Below, piece by piece: positions 19,652 to 26,959 of a stretch of 64,000 bases of DNA. The notes beneath the pieces were generated by a model, which saw only the letters and a list, made by a program, of their open reading frames with translations, did no database searches and was not told the DNA's origin. Source of the DNA: a virus. The stretch's first letter is position 1; every line of letters begins with the position of its first letter. The stretch spans positions 1-64,000 of the IMG/VR virus record IMGVR_UViG_3300042332_000310. One strand, given 5' to 3'. Made by a program: the position numbers and the translations under genes.

Positions 19652-19883
19652 GTATTATTTCTTTTACTTCTTTACAATTAACTTCAGATACTTGTTCAAC
19701 TATGCTTATGTATCTACCTTTCTCAAATATTTCTATATCTAATTCCCCTTTAAGTGAATCTATTAAGACTTTATCTTTTCTAATAACAGCATTTAGTTTA
19801 TCCGTCTCTTGCTTAAAAGATATAATAACTAATGTAATTGATACAAATATAAACGCAATTAAAAGAGATATAGCTTTTGGCAT
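19638..19883 (-). CDS. Small membrane-anchored coiled-coil protein, inner-spanin-like
   Basis: 81 aa. An N-terminal membrane helix (SLLIAFIFVSITLVIISF) followed by a charged helical region with one Cys. This is the shape of an Rz-type inner-membrane spanin, and it follows the endolysin (TAATG overlap at 19881-19885) as spanins often do. No sequence homology is claimed. Confidence 0.5.
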   Translation of the reverse strand: MPKAISLLIAFIFVSITLVIISFKQETDKLNAVIRKDKVLIDSLKGELDIEIFEKGRYISIVEQVSEVNCKEVKEIIHGTE

Positions 19884-20479
19884 TATGATAACAGTTGATG
19901 ATATTCTTTAAAGTGTTTTATTCTGTCAGCCAATCCAATAGTTCCACCATTTACTTTCTTAGTAACCTTTGTTACAACCTCGTCTGTTGCTCCTTGGTCA
20001 GCAACTGCATTCAATCCAGTCTTAGACCAAAACCATGCAGCAGATAAAAGTGGGTACTTTGTAGCTACTAAATCAGGATTTGCTTCAATGTTATCTTCAA
20101 CAGTCTTATCAAATGCTTGGTAGTTAGTCTTACCTGTTAATTGAATATAACCTCTTCCACGAAACTTAAATCCATCTCCACTAGCTTGATTGCCATTACC
20201 CATTCTGTTTGCATATACAATGTTAGCAATCTTCTCAGGCTTACGCTGATATTCAGCAGCACTCTCAGGAGTGAAATACTTTTTAAATATACCTACAAGA
20301 CCTTTAGCACTATAGTTTAAGTTTTCTGTAGTAACTCTAAAGCCTCCACTCTCGTGTCCTGTTTGAGCTAAAAAATGTGCTAAACGTATTGGTGTATTAA
20401 CACCAAACTTTTGAGACACTTCAGGAATCTGTTTGATAACAGAATCAGGTATATGACCCTTCAATTTATCTAAATTCAT
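19883..20479 (-). CDS. Endolysin, glycoside hydrolase family 19 (chitinase-like)
   Basis: 198 aa. GHESGGF (Glu43) and TENLNYS (Glu52) fit the two catalytic glutamates of GH19, and FRGRGYIQLTGKTNYQ near 106-121 is the conserved substrate-groove segment. Phage GH19 enzymes cut the glycan strand of peptidoglycan. There is no signal peptide, so export depends on the holin encoded directly upstream (2 nt away). Full-length catalytic domain, no extra wall-binding domain. Confidence 0.92.
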   Translation of the reverse strand: MNLDKLKGHIPDSVIKQIPEVSQKFGVNTPIRLAHFLAQTGHESGGFRVTTENLNYSAKGLVGIFKKYFTPESAAEYQRKPEKIANIVYANRMGNGNQASGDGFKFRGRGYIQLTGKTNYQAFDKTVEDNIEANPDLVATKYPLLSAAWFWSKTGLNAVADQGATDEVVTKVTKKVNGGTIGLADRIKHFKEYHQLLS

Positions 20480-20480
20480 T

Positions 20481-20726
20481 TTACTTTTCCTTTATATTTT
20501 TATTACCAAATACAGCTTCTACGCCAGTGATACCACACATAGTTAGTGCTGTATACATAAGGCCGTTAAATACGATAGGTTCAATAACAAATGCAATACC
20601 CATTGCACCTGTAACTACATCTGTGATAGCATAGATAGCCATTAACAGAAATGATACAAACCCTAATACAGCCTTTTGATTTACGTCAGACTTATCGCTG
20701 AACATTCTAAGTAAAAATTCTTTCAT
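20481..20726 (-). CDS. Holin
   Basis: 81 aa with two or three hydrophobic segments (about 20-37, 39-50 and 52-70), a charged N-terminus and a Lys/Glu tail. Size, topology and position directly before the endolysin support a holin that opens the inner membrane. Confidence 0.75.
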   Translation of the reverse strand: MKEFLLRMFSDKSDVNQKAVLGFVSFLLMAIYAITDVVTGAMGIAFVIEPIVFNGLMYTALTMCGITGVEAVFGNKNIKEK

Positions 20727-21387: not shown

Positions 21388-21552
21388 TGACTCATATTTA
21401 TCCCATATAAGTCACATTGATACATTTTGCATGAATTATTAGAAAATTTCATGCAGATTCTGTCACAATTTTTCAAATATTTGTGACATATTATACCCTA
21501 TAGCGTATAAAGTAACATATAAAATACCTTATTATACCCTATCACGTATAAT
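21388..21552. repeat. Array of five inverted repeats in the intergenic region
   Basis: In order: TGACT-c-ATAT / ATAT-a-AGTCA (21388-21414); TGCATGAA / TTCATGCA with a 12-nt spacer (21428-21455); TGTCACAA / TTGTGACA with a 12-nt spacer (21461-21488); and two copies of TTATACCCTAT-nn-CGTATAA (21491-21510 and 21533-21552), each with TTATAC/GTATAA arms. The two last copies are exactly 42 bp apart, four helical turns. The region separates the exported-protein cluster from the lysis genes and holds no gene. Confidence 0.65.
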
Positions 21553-22802
21553 TATAAGTTAAATTTAGTCCCTATTAGAAGCCCAATCATATTGACAGGG
21601 TACATGTATTTTACGTTAGTGCTGAGCCTAAAACGCTTAGATATGGCTATATCAAATGATGAGCCTACAATATAGGTCATTTGGCTAGTAGCCGCAAAGT
21701 CCTTTGACTTGCTAGAGTAAGATAAAGGGTTAGACATTATAAATAACTCAGGGGTAATGCCTAGTCTTTTGCTGTAGGTAATAGGCTTCATACCAAACAG
21801 CACTATAGAAGATGCCCAGAACTGCTGTTTCACGCTCTCAAATGGAATAGATGTATTGATAAGGCTTAAGGCATAACCATAGACATATGACTTATGCGTC
21901 ATTACATATGAATTTCCTATAATATGTAGTAAATCTCCTGCATTATAAGCTAGCGTATATGACATTGTAGAAATACCACATAATTTACCATCCTGTATGT
22001 TCATTTTAGAATACCTCGTAGATAGGGCAAATTGCCTTAAATTTGAGAAGATTGTAAGCGTTGAGCCATAAGATACGTCTCCTGCCATAGATGCCCTAGA
22101 AACGCCTAAATTTGCCATTAAATTAAACTCACCTTGAATCTGTTGAACCGCACTCATATCAGACGAAAAAATCAATGGCGTTTGGCCTGCTTTTGCGGAA
22201 GACTTTTTCTTTTCTTCCTTTTTTTCTTCTTTTTTCTCTTCCTTTTTCTCCTCGGATTTTTCTTCACTTTTGCTTTCAGATTTGCTTTCAGAAGACTCAG
22301 AACTGCTTTCGCTAGAAGATGAGCTACTCTCGCTACTTGATGAAGATTCACTAGAGCTACTCTGACTACTTGACGAGCTAGATGAAGATGACGCTGCTGG
22401 AGCAGGTGGAGGTGGTGCGCTTGCTGCCGCAGATGACGCTGCTGATGATGCCGCTGAACTTGCTGCACTTGATGCTGCCGCACTAGCTGTAGAAGCGATT
22501 GTATTAGCTACTGTCTGCTGTGTTAACTGTTGTGCTAATTGAGCAACAGGGCATGGCGCTGAATACTCTGCATATACTTGATTTACCCAAGTCATTAAAG
22601 CTCCTGACTTTACATCTTGAGCTGTTATGTATTTAGACTTGCCCATAAACGTAAGCGTAGTGCCTTGTAGTGGAACTATAAATACAGTTACACTCTTACT
22701 GCATGGGTCTACGAATGTACTCGTAAGTATCTGAGAGTATGAAAATAAAGGTAGTAATACTACTACCAATAGAGATAAAATAAACTTATTTAGGGAATAC
22801 AT
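21552..22802 (-). CDS. Exported low-complexity protein with outer-membrane-like C-terminal domain
   Basis: 416 aa from ATG 22802 (13 residues shorter than the longest frame), so the protein begins with the signal peptide MYSLNKFILSLLVVVLLPLF and a cleavage site after SYSQ. An N-terminal domain of about 90 residues has two Cys. A 120-residue low-complexity part follows: Ala/Ser repeats (SSAA), a Pro patch, poly-Ser with Glu, then Lys/Glu repeats (EKKEEKKEEKK). The last 190 residues are beta-rich with alternating hydrophobics and end in Leu-type strands, like an outer-membrane or PorV-type barrel. It overlaps the CsgG-like gene by 17 nt. Function unknown. Confidence 0.65.
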   Translation of the reverse strand: MYSLNKFILSLLVVVLLPLFSYSQILTSTFVDPCSKSVTVFIVPLQGTTLTFMGKSKYITAQDVKSGALMTWVNQVYAEYSAPCPVAQLAQQLTQQTVANTIASTASAAASSAASSAASSAASSAAASAPPPPAPAASSSSSSSSSQSSSSESSSSSESSSSSSESSSESSESKSESKSEEKSEEKKEEKKEEKKEEKKKSSAKAGQTPLIFSSDMSAVQQIQGEFNLMANLGVSRASMAGDVSYGSTLTIFSNLRQFALSTRYSKMNIQDGKLCGISTMSYTLAYNAGDLLHIIGNSYVMTHKSYVYGYALSLINTSIPFESVKQQFWASSIVLFGMKPITYSKRLGITPELFIMSNPLSYSSKSKDFAATSQMTYIVGSSFDIAISKRFRLSTNVKYMYPVNMIGLLIGTKFNL

Positions 22803-23502
22803 TCTTTTTAACCATTCTTGATAGGATGCGAGCACACGCAATATCTAGTGCTTTCTTTGTGGCTGTTCCTATGGTTGATTGGTTAAACTTAACTTCTGAC
22901 AAATTCTCGTCATTAAGTAAGCTTGCTTCACGTGTAGTCTTTGCTTCTCCAAGACCAGACGCTGCTATAATTTCTCCTGTCTCTGCATTCGTAAATCGTA
23001 CTTGTAATCCTATTCTTGTTACAACAGTTTCCTTGATACCATCCTTTACTCTAATCTCCTCATCTTCTGAAATAGAATAATCGTAGCATTCAATCTCTAC
23101 GAAGTAGTGGGCTAGTCTAATCTTTCCTCGTCCATCCAGCTTATCTTGAGAAATTCCTGACTGCGAGGCTTGAAACTGTTTGACCATACGGTTTTTAATT
23201 TCCGTCTTGTCTTCTGTAAAGGTAAAACGATTGAGATTTTCAAGGTACTCAAGGGTGATGTTTGCAACACCCAAACCGACACGCTTTTCTTTAAGCTCTG
23301 GATACTGTTCATACATTTCATCTGATATTCCGCATTTTAAGATTTGAATTGGTATAGTCGGGCCATCATAATCCATGTATTGACTAATGTCAATTTTAGT
23401 CTCAAAGCTAGCCTTGAAGTTCTCTGTCTTAGTTGTCGCTACCTGTGAAATACCACTAACAGATAGCAACAACAATACAATAATATGAGTCAGTTTTTGC
23501 AT
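22786..23502 (-). CDS. CsgG-like secreted protein
   Basis: 238 aa with the signal peptide MQKLTHIIVLLLLSVSGIS. The mature part follows the CsgG/curli secretion channel pattern: RVGLGVANITLEYL, LNRFTFTEDKTEI, a RLAHYFVEIECYDY strand, VVTRIGLQVRFTNAETGEII, then TATKKALDIACARILSRMV at the end. CsgG-family proteins form lipoprotein pores in the outer membrane; here no lipobox Cys is seen, so it may be periplasmic or unlipidated. It is co-transcribed with other exported proteins of the cluster. Confidence 0.65.
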   Translation of the reverse strand: MQKLTHIIVLLLLSVSGISQVATTKTENFKASFETKIDISQYMDYDGPTIPIQILKCGISDEMYEQYPELKEKRVGLGVANITLEYLENLNRFTFTEDKTEIKNRMVKQFQASQSGISQDKLDGRGKIRLAHYFVEIECYDYSISEDEEIRVKDGIKETVVTRIGLQVRFTNAETGEIIAASGLGEAKTTREASLLNDENLSEVKFNQSTIGTATKKALDIACARILSRMVKKNVFPK

Positions 23503-23518
23503 TTTTTGACTTATGTTT

Positions 23519-24082
23519 TTATTTATCTTTCAAAAGTCCGCATTTTTGACACTCAAGTTCTCCGTCTCCGTCAGAATCTCCCCAAACATGCTCACATTGT
23601 CTGTGCGCTTGATATTCAAATTCTAACTTCTCCATTTCTTGCTCATGCTCTTGTTGGTCTCTCTTAAGTTCAAAGTTTTGTCTGTTCTCTGTAACAGCTA
23701 AATCTCTAGCAGCCTCAGCACCTTTGATAAACGCATCAGGAATAATCGGTGTTGGAACTTTGTTTGTTTCCTTCATGTCGTTAGTATGAGATAGCGTTAC
23801 ACCATCTTCTTCATCCATTTTTTGTACCAACATCTTATCCTTGTCTGCATCAGAATAGTAGTAGTCTATAATCTTACCATAGCTACCTATAAATGCACCT
23901 AGTAATAATAATAACAGCTCCTTCCACTCAGCACCCATTGCTGTACCTGTAGCGATTGCTGCAAATATTCCTAATAAGATTAATACAAATAGTCCTAATA
24001 CGATGGCTGTTACATACCATCTTTTATCCATTAAACTAGTTAAAAGGTCTTTAAAACCTGATTGCTGTTGAGGCTTGTCCAT
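23519..24082 (-). CDS. Two-span membrane protein with coiled coil and zinc ribbon
   Basis: 187 aa. Two hydrophobic helices (about 23-46 and 54-70), an Asp/Lys-rich linker, a long charged helix (residues 120-160) and a C-terminal zinc-binding tip with CEHVWGDSDGDGELECQKCG. The membrane part resembles holin-type phage membrane proteins; a second holin or an anchor for a cytosolic complex is possible. The start overlaps the 47-aa micro-gene by about 43 nt. Confidence 0.6.
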   Translation of the reverse strand: MDKPQQQSGFKDLLTSLMDKRWYVTAIVLGLFVLILLGIFAAIATGTAMGAEWKELLLLLLGAFIGSYGKIIDYYYSDADKDKMLVQKMDEEDGVTLSHTNDMKETNKVPTPIIPDAFIKGAEAARDLAVTENRQNFELKRDQQEHEQEMEKLEFEYQAHRQCEHVWGDSDGDGELECQKCGLLKDK

Positions 24083-24183
24083 ACGTTATAAATTGTTTCT
24101 TGATTACTATTAATTAATTGAGCTGTTTTTTTGCCTGAACGTATACTACGTTTTGCTCTAGGCTTTTTTGCTTTATTTGCCAT
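24040..24183 (-). CDS. 47-aa basic micro-protein
   Basis: Starts MANKAKKPRAKRSIRSGKKT. Its ATG overlaps the stop of the preceding gene as TAATG (24181-24185), which strongly suggests coupled translation, and it overlaps the next gene by 43 nt in another frame. Nucleic-acid or membrane-surface binding is likely from its charge only. Confidence 0.5.
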   Translation of the reverse strand: MANKAKKPRAKRSIRSGKKTAQLINSNQETIYNVWTSLNSNQVLKTF

Positions 24184-24488
24184 TACCAAGCTGCTGGTTT
24201 TTCTTTGAACTCATCCGCTTCTTTTTTAGGCTTAGCTGGTTGAGGTTTTGCTGCTACTTCTTTCTCTTTGATAATCACAGTTTTACCACCACCTGCCGCT
24301 TGTTGTTGCGTTTGGTTGTTTTGTATATTAATTACTGGAGCTGCTTGTTGAACAGGTGTTTCTTTTTCATCTCCTCCTGTTAACTTAGTAGTTATCCATC
24401 CACCTACACCTAAAGTAATTGTGCTAACGAATCCTATGATTACATTTTTCATAGAACTACCAGTTGATTGTTCTTGTTCTTCTGACAT
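24183..24488 (-). CDS. Single-span membrane protein with Gln/Pro-rich tail
   Basis: 101 aa. One hydrophobic segment (NVIIGFVSTITLGVGGWITT) and a long low-complexity tail rich in Gln, Pro, Ala, Lys and Glu. It sits between the lipoprotein and the coiled-coil membrane protein. No family recognised. Confidence 0.55.
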   Translation of the reverse strand: MSEEQEQSTGSSMKNVIIGFVSTITLGVGGWITTKLTGGDEKETPVQQAAPVINIQNNQTQQQAAGGGKTVIIKEKEVAAKPQPAKPKKEADEFKEKPAAW

Positions 24489-24494
24489 ATTATA

Positions 24495-24845
24495 TTATTT
24501 TATAATTATTGGGGTTCTAGTTTCCTGACCATTTATATTCATCAAAATTAAGTCATAAGTACCACTCTGCAAACCAGACAGATTCTCTTCCTTAATTAAA
24601 AAGCCATCTACAGAAGATAGCCCATAAGATTTATAGACTTTGCCTGACATATCCTTAATTGTTACATTGTACTTTGCAGAAGGCTGTAAGTTAAAACTCA
24701 TAGTAATAGGGCCAGTTGTTGGCGTTGGAGCTACATTTACATACCCTTGCTTGTCAGGCTTTGCAGCTTGTGGAGCAGGATAATACTCTATTTTCTTACA
24801 TGCAGATATCGCAACGACACAGAAAAGGATTATAATTTTTTTCAT
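24495..24845 (-). CDS. Lipoprotein with a type IX sorting-like C-terminal domain
   Basis: 116 aa. Lipoprotein signal MKKIIILFCVVAISACKK with Cys16 as the probable lipidation site. The rest matches the C-terminal sorting domain of Bacteroidota type IX secretion substrates in order: APTPTTGPITMSFNL, YNVTIKDMSGKVYKSYG, LSGLQSGTYDLILMNINGQ and a basic end (PIIIK). In normal substrates this domain sits at the end of large exported proteins; here it is almost the entire protein and is lipidated. It could occupy or jam the host secretion machinery, or be displayed on the surface. Function is inference; the resemblance is directly visible. Confidence 0.6.
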   Translation of the reverse strand: MKKIIILFCVVAISACKKIEYYPAPQAAKPDKQGYVNVAPTPTTGPITMSFNLQPSAKYNVTIKDMSGKVYKSYGLSSVDGFLIKEENLSGLQSGTYDLILMNINGQETRTPIIIK

Positions 24846-24846
24846 A

Positions 24847-26490
24847 TTATTTAAAGTTGTTTATACCGATTAAACGAATTAATGCTGTGTTTAGGCTTAT
24901 TCCTATTTGGTTTCCTTTATTATCAGACGCATCCATATTATCTGTTACACCTACATAAGTATTTATGTCAGTGCCTGCAGACTTAGCCTTAAATATAACC
25001 GTAAACGGTACAATAGTTCCTTTTATTGGCTCTTTTAATGTCTTGTCTATACCACCAAACTTAACATAGCCATCACCATTCGTAAAGAAGTTAAGCCAAG
25101 ATGGATTGGTATTAGCCTTAATTTCTTGCAACTGAAGTTTAGTTGCATCATAGGTAAACTCAAACTGTATACCGCATACAGATAATTCATTGGTATTTAC
25201 AGATATAGGTATAGATATATTATCTGATTCAACTACTGCGTTAGCTAAACTAACAGCGATGGCTTTCTTTTGTATTGGTGTATTCACTAGTGAAAATGAT
25301 TGAATTGTTCCGTCCCTAGCTACAACTTGTGAGCTATGGCTTCTGTTGATATCTCCTGCTATAAGGTAGTTTAATTCTAAGGCCTGATTGGCATTAGTAG
25401 TACGAAAATACACAAACTCTTGCGGAGTTAAAGTATCCTTGCTAAACTCATCCCTCTTATAAGTATACACCTTTGGGTCTATGTTATTGGTAGCAGCAAC
25501 TTGTGCAAGTACAAGGTAAGGGTCTGCAGCATCAAATGAGCCATTATAGTTCACATCAGCAGCCAACCAAGCAGCACCTGACTTTAAATTAGTCTTATTA
25601 AAAGTGCCATCTAAATTAACAGAACCAAACTCATTTAACGCAGCTGTCGCATCTGATACCGTAACAGCTGATTTAGTCGCATTTAAGAGGCTATCTATGA
25701 TAACTGATACTTTGTATGTCCTATTGGCTAAAAGCTCCGTAGAAGCCTTAAAAACGCCATTTACATCAGGAGTAAGCGTAACAGAATTTGTTGAGGCCGA
25801 GTCGGTAAACTTAATGCGAGTCTGAACAGCATTATTTTTATATATATTACCAGTAAGAAGAGTATTTGCATTAGCATCTAAAGTTATAAATGTGCTCTTA
25901 GGAAGAGGCATATAAGTATCAATATAAGTACCATCCGATTTCCAGCCCGACACGAAGTTCATATACAAACTATCATAAGCCGTTCCTGCTGGCACATTGT
26001 TTATCTTAAGACGTATCTTGATGTATTTCCCATCACGTAGATTGCTATTTGAAGTAACTGTAGTGTAGATTCTCTGGATAGCATTATTGCCATTTGGTGA
26101 ATATACATAGTTAGCATAATTGTAATTCTGTGAACCATTTTGTGTTGTGTTTTGAGCTGTTCTAATATATGTAAATCCTGGATGGAAGCTGTTTTGAATA
26201 CTCATTGTAGCACCTGTAGGCATAGCACTGCTATCGTCACTAAAGTTAGTTACGCTTAATATAGTATATGTTCTATAGTTATACTGAAAGTCAAAATATA
26301 GCGTTCTAGTAGAAGATGATTTCTCCTTATACATAACCACCATATCAACAGTATCCCCTTTAAGGATACTCGTATCTTTTATATTTCTAGTAATATTAGA
26401 CTTCTCTAGGTAAATTTCAGGAGTTTGAGCTGTTACATTTATACATAAAAACGTAACAAGACTAAGGATTAATTTTTTGAATAAGTTCAT
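24847..26490 (-). CDS. Secreted protein with dockerin-like and cohesin-like parts
   Basis: 547 aa from ATG 26490 (21 residues shorter than the longest frame), giving the signal peptide MNLFKKLILSLVTFLCINVTA. The first part is beta-rich (residues 25-200). Around residue 310 a calcium-loop segment ADVNYNGSFDAADPYLVLAQ fits one dockerin/EF-hand-like repeat, preceded by VSDATAALNEFG. The last 130 residues (ISIPISVNTNELSVCGIQFEF and FTYDATKLQLQEI) fit a cohesin-type beta sandwich. There is no sorting domain. It overlaps the preceding secreted-protein gene by 28 nt. Together this suggests an exported binding scaffold; the ligand is unknown. Confidence 0.6.
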   Translation of the reverse strand: MNLFKKLILSLVTFLCINVTAQTPEIYLEKSNITRNIKDTSILKGDTVDMVVMYKEKSSSTRTLYFDFQYNYRTYTILSVTNFSDDSSAMPTGATMSIQNSFHPGFTYIRTAQNTTQNGSQNYNYANYVYSPNGNNAIQRIYTTVTSNSNLRDGKYIKIRLKINNVPAGTAYDSLYMNFVSGWKSDGTYIDTYMPLPKSTFITLDANANTLLTGNIYKNNAVQTRIKFTDSASTNSVTLTPDVNGVFKASTELLANRTYKVSVIIDSLLNATKSAVTVSDATAALNEFGSVNLDGTFNKTNLKSGAAWLAADVNYNGSFDAADPYLVLAQVAATNNIDPKVYTYKRDEFSKDTLTPQEFVYFRTTNANQALELNYLIAGDINRSHSSQVVARDGTIQSFSLVNTPIQKKAIAVSLANAVVESDNISIPISVNTNELSVCGIQFEFTYDATKLQLQEIKANTNPSWLNFFTNGDGYVKFGGIDKTLKEPIKGTIVPFTVIFKAKSAGTDINTYVGVTDNMDASDNKGNQIGISLNTALIRLIGINNFK

Positions 26491-26959
26491 AGCATGCTTT
26501 TTTAATTGCTGTGCTAAGGTTCTGTTGGTTAAACTTACCGTCTGTGCCGACAAGTATCGTTGAAGTTGACACCTCGGATGCGCTACCTTCTACCAGGATT
26601 GGCTTGGACTTTTTACCATCCTTATCCATATAACCCTTGATTCTAATAACGACATCGGTGTTGTCTTTATGGAATACTGATAGGTTGCTTTTAGTCTTCA
26701 GCACATCCATATAAATCAACTCCGCAAAGATAATGTTTTTGGATGATGGGTTCAAAGCGTATCCTTTCTCTTGTAACAACTCCTCTATAATATTCTTTAC
26801 ACCAAACTCTATTTTTCTGTTGCCAGCTAAATCGCCTAGCTTAATGCTGTTCTGAACAGATATAGATATATCTTGGGCTGTAACGCTTGATACAAATAGC
26901 AAAGCCCCCATTAGGAGGCCAAGCTTATATTTACTTACACAATGAGAACTAATTTTCAT
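26462..26959 (-). CDS. Secreted protein, distantly CsgG-like
   Basis: 165 aa with a signal peptide (KLGLLMGALLFVSSVTAQ). It contains FAELIYMDVL, TDVVIRIKGYMDKDGKK and the end FNQQNLSTAIKKACYELIQK, which parallels FNQSTIGTATKKALDIACAR of the CsgG-like protein at 22786-23502. The two are probably distant paralogues or partners. It starts inside the end of the upstream gene (11-nt overlap). Confidence 0.55.
   Translation of the reverse strand: MKISSHCVSKYKLGLLMGALLFVSSVTAQDISISVQNSIKLGDLAGNRKIEFGVKNIIEELLQEKGYALNPSSKNIIFAELIYMDVLKTKSNLSVFHKDNTDVVIRIKGYMDKDGKKSKPILVEGSASEVSTSTILVGTDGKFNQQNLSTAIKKACYELIQKINP

Follow-up and report, generated by a model that had tools for sequence, protein, structure and literature searches.

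The gene designated C here encodes a 116-residue lipoprotein whose mature part is homologous to the type A sorting domains of the type IX secretion system (T9SS). It lies in a conserved viral cassette, 1 bp 3' of a gene (B) for a cohesin-domain protein, a position that the initial annotation of this DNA did not record. We favour, and would give an even chance to, the reading that C originated as the sorting domain of a T9SS-type cargo protein, was severed from it and now serves as the lipid-anchored partner of B, helping to display B on infected cells. The window analysed comprises 64,000 nucleotides (positions 1 to 64,000 of IMG/VR record IMGVR_UViG_3300042332_000310), and its features are given in Table 1. 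The record belongs to a phage whose host is probably a member of the Bacteroidota; its terminase matches 97 phage records, and the best 15 matches listed, at 28-30% identity, come from phages of Cellulophaga, Flavobacterium and Maribacter and from one unassigned phage.

Table 1. Coordinates of gene C, its parts and the surrounding genes within the window.
Feature	Position	Strand	Basis
Gene A (165 aa, signal peptide, conserved in cassette)	26462..26959	-	
Gene B (signal peptide, C-terminal cohesin, weak dockerin-like motif)	24847..26490	-	PF00963; start at the ATG of MNLFKK
Gene C (116-aa lipoprotein, stand-alone T9SS type A sorting-like domain)	24495..24845	-	ORF, TIGR04183, relatives, model
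C, lipoprotein signal peptide and lipidated Cys16 (lipobox ISAC)	24798..24845	-	Sequence; invariant Cys
C, sorting-domain stretch (residues 38-116)	24498..24734	-	TIGR04183 model 1-72 of 72
Gene D (101 aa, apparent N-terminal membrane segment, then Q/P/K-rich stretch)	24183..24488	-	Sequence; conserved
Gene E (187 aa, apparent membrane segments, C-terminal CxxC motif)	23519..24082	-	Sequence; conserved
Gene F (238 aa, signal peptide, predicted CsgG-like fold)	22786..23502	-	Foldseek, VIA
Gene G (signal peptide, S/K/E-rich linker; C-terminal part outer-membrane-barrel-like by eye)	21552..22802	-	Sequence; start at the ATG of MYSLNK
Small membrane protein, holin-like by eye	20481..20726	-	Sequence; conserved cluster
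Endolysin, downstream of cassette	19883..20479	-	Sequence; conserved cluster

C begins with a short signal peptide that closes on the lipobox ISAC, with Cys16; about 18 linker residues then lead into a domain that extends to the last residue. The layout of a T9SS cargo, with a Sec signal for signal peptidase I and an N-terminal passenger, was not found, since C has a lipobox, Cys16 and only those roughly 18 residues before the first strand. That C is a lipoprotein with its lipobox at Cys16, as the initial annotation had proposed, is borne out by the sequence: the cysteine is invariant in all 61 aligned members of the C family, and the lipobox pattern that defines bacterial lipoproteins is present in 74 of 77 C sequences. 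The proposal of a stand-alone sorting-like domain also holds, residues 38-116 aligning with the whole TIGR04183 model of NCBIfam (24.2 bits, E 2.4e-5, cut-off 23), and this is the sole match at E <= 0.001 when the whole 67,276-base viral record is searched. The second profile, PF18962, was missed by 0.3 bits (26.7 against a gathering score of 27), so that one of the two models upholds the assignment and the other falls just short of it. An acid-rich stretch after the lipoprotein cysteine is a surface-export motif; it is absent from C, 65 of 77 sequences having at most one acidic residue at positions +2 to +7, and C may therefore face the periplasm. Relatives of C at 74-92% identity occur in four viral contigs. 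The C genes of the window and of locus L002 (24801-24845 and 8001-8045, respectively) differ by a replacement of the signal peptide, their DNA being identical at 302 of 303 positions in the mature part and at 22 of 45 in the signal peptide. Among C or F pairs with mature DNA at least 93% identical, 15 of 226 showed signal-peptide DNA less than 65% identical, and most of these 15 come from two groups of related contigs.

The position of C relative to the rest of the sorting-domain family was assessed with 14 other sorting domains (nine viral fused forms, two from the metagenomic contig L119 described below and three from other contigs of the same MAG), in which the four columns of P-x-P and G-x-Y are invariant and a fifth, a glycine, nearly so. 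The C of the window keeps all five columns (P-x-P, G, SGxY), as does its clade. In the C family at E <= 0.01, TIGR04183 matches 8 of 61 members, PF18962 10 and DUF3244 13, and only 5 of 77 C sequences align at the P-x-P columns and keep them. When the window's clade was removed, hhalign of the remaining 56 C sequences against the profile of the 14 sorting domains still gave 95% (E 3e-8), with 91% against the nine phage fused forms and 29% against the three host domains alone. Because few C sequences match TIGR04183 or keep P-x-P, yet hhalign still supports the relationship, C is, as judged from these profiles, kin to phage sorting domains and for the most part drifted from the standard model.

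A structural model of C built from 61 sequences has seven strands and a mean pLDDT of 87.5. VIA-align placed Ig-like domains of complement C3 first (Z 11.6) and, among solved T9SS sorting domains, gave Z 10.8 for PorU, 10.2 for mirolase, 9.9 for translocon-bound NucA and 9.8 for PorZ, whereas Foldseek returned no sorting domain among its best 50 rows. The similarity to sorting domains on which the initial annotation depended is thus seen with TIGR04183, and solved sorting domains are among the structural matches listed, ranked below complement C3; the predicted fold agrees with a sorting domain and is too generic to single sorting domains out. Searches of PDB sequences with C alone, with the C family or with the phage protein gp015 (see below) found no sorting domain among the matches listed, and a mixed profile (A15) was the only such query to reach one (NucA, E 2e-8).

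Clustering of the ORFs in the fetched loci defined a conserved set A-B-C-D-E-F-G, with holin-like and endolysin genes nearby and with tail-fibre-like genes, recognized by eye, upstream. Before the counts given below, loci L008, L010, L019 and L087-L090, whose contigs are shared with other loci, were dropped together with L001 and L006. The cassette is a widespread virus gene set that may build something on the exterior of the infected cell. In E, the C-terminal CxxC stretch that follows the membrane segments looks zinc-ribbon-like by eye. The holin-like protein had no match in PHROGs at E <= 0.01, and we take the endolysin, by eye, to be GH19-like.

The B of the window ends with its cohesin domain (PF00963, 33 bits, gathering score 24.1), after which C begins. 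The dockerin-like motif scored 15.2 bits with PF00404, below the cut-off of 22.9; dockerin matches stayed below the cut-off in all six records searched and reached E <= 0.01 in 3 of 42 aligned B proteins. At the same threshold, 22 of these 42 matched cohesin, 8 C-type lectin, 5 PA14 and 3 GLEYA, so B looks modular, with putative glycan-binding domains in certain phages. In three loci, G is followed by another B-like ORF, of 477-481 residues (L068, 10187-11632; L070, 10181-11617; L086, 10178-11611); these ORFs end at GD(V/I)NLSHSS, where the cohesin would follow, and no sorting domain was found in the one that was scanned, that of L068.

In sister phages the sorting domain is fused to the cohesin protein. 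In the cultured Flavobacterium phage immuto, F is 54% identical and the neighbouring genes match the profiles of B, D, G and A; its protein gp015 combines a cohesin scoring 36.7 bits with a sorting domain at the C-terminus, where TIGR04183 scores 44.8 bits, and relatives of gp015 occur in 27 viral contigs, immuto itself among them. Searches with tblastn of 50,697 phage records returned no match for C or for B and, for F, only four immuto records. Three layouts can be distinguished: cohesin and sorting domain in a single protein of 634-658 residues; an N-terminal protein encoded apart from a cohesin-sorting-domain protein; and, in the group of the window, a B that ends at the cohesin, followed by the lipoprotein C. 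When 15 whole records were searched with TIGR04183, 11 matched once each, and the ten over the cut-off comprise six fused and four split forms (the window, L002, L003 and L004). The record of L026 gave a weak match (16.2 bits) outside the fetched stretch, and those of L033, L014, L062 and L044 gave none, although C is present.

B and the sorting domain occur in a 1:1 ratio in all 54 loci that span A to D, the sorting domain being a separate C in 44 and fused in 10. By gene content, 23 of these loci have two B and two C, 21 have one of each and 10 lack C; ten further loci with fewer whole B than C, whose stretch starts within B or immediately ahead of it, were left out of this count. All ten B proteins without a C match TIGR04183 at their C-terminus, nine at 23.5-24.3 bits (cut-off 23) and that of L070 at 22.6. 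Eight of the ten are near copies sharing the same last 90 residues, so the independent fused cases are few. Shared descent as neighbouring genes may be all that lies behind the pairing. B and C are tightly coupled, the stop of B and the start of C overlapping by 1 bp at 26 of 47 junctions and lying 1 bp apart, as in the window, at 14 of 47. The gene order is B-B-C-C in all 23 loci with two pairs, and in L078, which has a single pair, a class-1 B accompanies a class-2 C; together, and with the class mix seen in one locus only, these observations suggest that the second pair was inserted between the partners of the first.

A tree of F (67 rows) was rooted at the midpoint, next to the exceptionally long branch of L112 and L113; the fused label of nine L068-type loci was assigned by hand. 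In this tree the fused forms lie outside and the split forms make up one group except for L070, requiring two changes, so the split state seems derived if the midpoint root is accepted; constraining all split rows to one group lowers the likelihood (p-AU 0.0625). Read with caution, the tree is compatible with one split and later exchange. That the protein of L070, with cohesin and sorting domain fused, falls within the split group suggests that the B module has been exchanged.

Gene F is more conserved than B or C. At least 160 relatives are present in viral contigs, and across the best 80, which were fetched from contigs of 5.6 to 287 kb, best-segment identity is 75-97%. A model of F based on 30 sequences (pLDDT 80.5) had CsgG as its best Foldseek match (E 1.5e-7), with low TM-scores of 0.27-0.48 in the best 20 rows. 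The best eight VIA rows were all CsgG (Z 10.9-11.6 over 160-173 residues, rmsd 3.6-4.2 Å), ahead of Cj1090c (Z 10.1) and PelC (Z 9.2), and a CsgG-like fold is accordingly predicted for F. The identification of F as CsgG by sequence was rejected: the Pfam CsgG family PF03783 was found in none of five records, the F of the window had no Pfam match of any kind, and hhalign against three CsgG sequences gave 1.5%. The signal peptide of this F also has no cysteine and so lacks the lipoprotein cysteine of CsgG. Comparison of the A and F profiles gave only 9% over 20 columns. A scan of 84,980 bacterial and archaeal species, which used two short peptide patterns and was not exhaustive, found a single F relative, on a 254-kb MAG contig. 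This contig (L119, CAIWBA010000291.1; L123) is binned in a Bacteroidetes MAG, and the 17 kb that were read look like phage; they include the cassette, its sorting domain in the fused state, and a second sorting-domain frame of 288 residues.

Under the reading that we favour, C would once have been the C-terminus of a cohesin-bearing, phage-encoded secreted protein that was split at the border between cohesin and sorting domain; having gained a lipoprotein signal, C would now act, anchored by its lipid, as partner to the cohesin protein B, the product of the gene immediately upstream. In the course of infection, the Sec-exported B would assemble with C and the CsgG-fold F at the outer membrane, where C would hold B through the contact that joined the two domains within one chain in the fused ancestor, and the purpose would be to display an adhesin on the infected cell. 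Here we infer the binding of B to C, their location and orientation at the outer membrane, the export route, the timing and the purpose.

C could instead act as a sorting signal in trans, a possibility that we regard as unlikely: it would still dock into the host SprA-PorV translocon and escort B, itself devoid of a sorting domain, to the translocon or across it. In its favour, the window's clade retains the conserved P-x-P, G and SGxY positions, the four split records named above exceed the TIGR04183 cut-off, and in sister phages the fused forms have the appearance of ordinary cargo. Docking may also tolerate change, since sorting domains show little conservation at their contact surface (PMC10994853). 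The same source describes a lysine near the C-terminus of sorting domains as almost invariant and functionally important. At the aligned column, which probably corresponds to this functional lysine, all five members of the window's clade have threonine, against lysine in 20 and arginine in 5 of 27 host domains (host stretches L151 and L161 having been dropped before this count). Fused phage forms have lysine there in 19 of 22 cases and lack it in three, and only 9 of 77 sequences of the wider C family align at that column (Thr in six, Lys in three). A simple count of lysine at position -5 (27/28 fused, 2/77 split) was rejected, host domains having it in only 6 of 29; aligned columns were used instead because the tails differ in length. 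The scarcity of P-x-P across the C family and the lipidation of C, as read from its sequence, also speak against a signal in trans, and we know of no lipidated T9SS cargo. A bolder proposal, in which the trans-acting T9SS sorting lipoprotein and a CsgG-fold pore form a hybrid phage export system that delivers signal-less cohesin adhesins to the surface of infected Bacteroidota via the host translocon, seems to us rather improbable.

Less probable again is that C, an Ig-like lipoprotein on this view, has an independent function such as superinfection exclusion or disruption of the outer membrane at lysis, its pairing with B being gene linkage only. The neighbourhood would suit such a role, since of 89 loci, counted with redundant contigs, 69 have the holin-like cluster and 34 the endolysin cluster (some copies lying inside the cassette), and the generic fold would suit it too. 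A weak match to the Cor superinfection-exclusion family (PHROG 1119, E 0.012) covers residues 1-23 of C, essentially the signal peptide. This reading is opposed by the copy number of C, which tracks that of B in every complete locus once fused B is counted, and by the fusion of the same domain to cohesin in sister phages.

The initial annotation had suggested that C competes with host cargo for the T9SS translocon, so that surface receptors are removed or masked. The similarity to sorting domains and the small size without a passenger are what such a decoy would show, but the idea found no support in our analysis and we consider it very unlikely: the key lysine is not kept, the fused versions in sister phages are cargo-like, and a decoy leaves both these fusions and the pairing with B unexplained, the 1:1 ratio of separate or fused forms fitting a partner of B better. 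Bacteroidota chromosomes, moreover, have small stand-alone domains of their own. TIGR04183 is present in 26 of 31 Bacteroidota genomes, and three of the four small frames that were read among the matches listed are stand-alone sorting domains (L166, L167 and L169; 108-111 residues, 53.5-58.8 bits). The stand-alone sorting domain is for this reason not new. Like C, these proteins consist almost entirely of the sorting domain; unlike C, they score high with TIGR04183 and their signal peptides have no lipobox by eye, the cysteine of L169 lying in the core. The fourth small chromosomal frame has no clear signal peptide. A lipidated sorting domain paired with a cohesin gene did not turn up in our searches of open-access papers. 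That C is a virion or tail decoration protein is scarcely credible, for although Ig-like domains are common on phages and the cassette lies downstream of the tail-fibre-like genes, the lipobox cysteine is invariant and the cassette is rich in signal peptides.

Compared with known systems, C shares with the T9SS type A sorting domains (the CTDs of NucA, RemZ, mirolase and RgpB) the full-length HMM match, the P-x-P, G and SGxY positions and a seven-stranded model placed at the protein C-terminus. It differs from them in carrying a lipoprotein signal where they have an ordinary Sec signal, in lacking a passenger and the near-invariant lysine, and in a score barely over the cut-off. Phage-encoded T9SS cargo has been described before: in the accessible text of the respective reports, Cryophage encodes cargo with a type A sorting domain, one of these proteins with PA14 (PMC7468147), a domain also found in five of the 42 B proteins here, and the crAss-BACON proteins are phage-encoded T9SS cargo (PMC6949934). 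In both of these, as far as those texts go, the sorting domain is carried on the cargo, whereas in the present cassette it is encoded, as a lipoprotein, by a gene of its own that is paired with the cohesin gene (PMC7468147, PMC6949934). The B of the window resembles cellulosomal cohesin-dockerin components in its cohesin, which is over the cut-off, and in the weak dockerin-like motif; it differs in being a phage product and in having a dockerin below the cut-off. With regard to F, pelagimyophages carry the curli genes csgF-csgG, for which "sibling capture" is proposed in PMC7029224, and for the csgF-csgG of methylophage Melnitz a role in lysis is proposed, clumping not having been seen, in PMC9004378. 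The likeness is a CsgG-type protein in a small phage gene cluster of unknown purpose (PMC7029224, PMC9004378). F shares the fold only, with no Pfam CsgG match, hhalign support or lipobox, and its partner genes are others. Sibling capture or a lysis role like that suggested for Melnitz could apply to the present cassette.

Phage T9SS cargo and phage curli pores have each been reported already; here a sorting domain and a protein with a predicted CsgG fold share one conserved cassette. In this cassette one sorting signal occurs naturally in both fused and lipidated versions, and the fused version is available in a cultured phage, immuto, whose host is Flavobacterium sp. LMO8. If C does act in trans, the idea that the T9SS requires an obligatory covalent link between signal and cargo would need revision.
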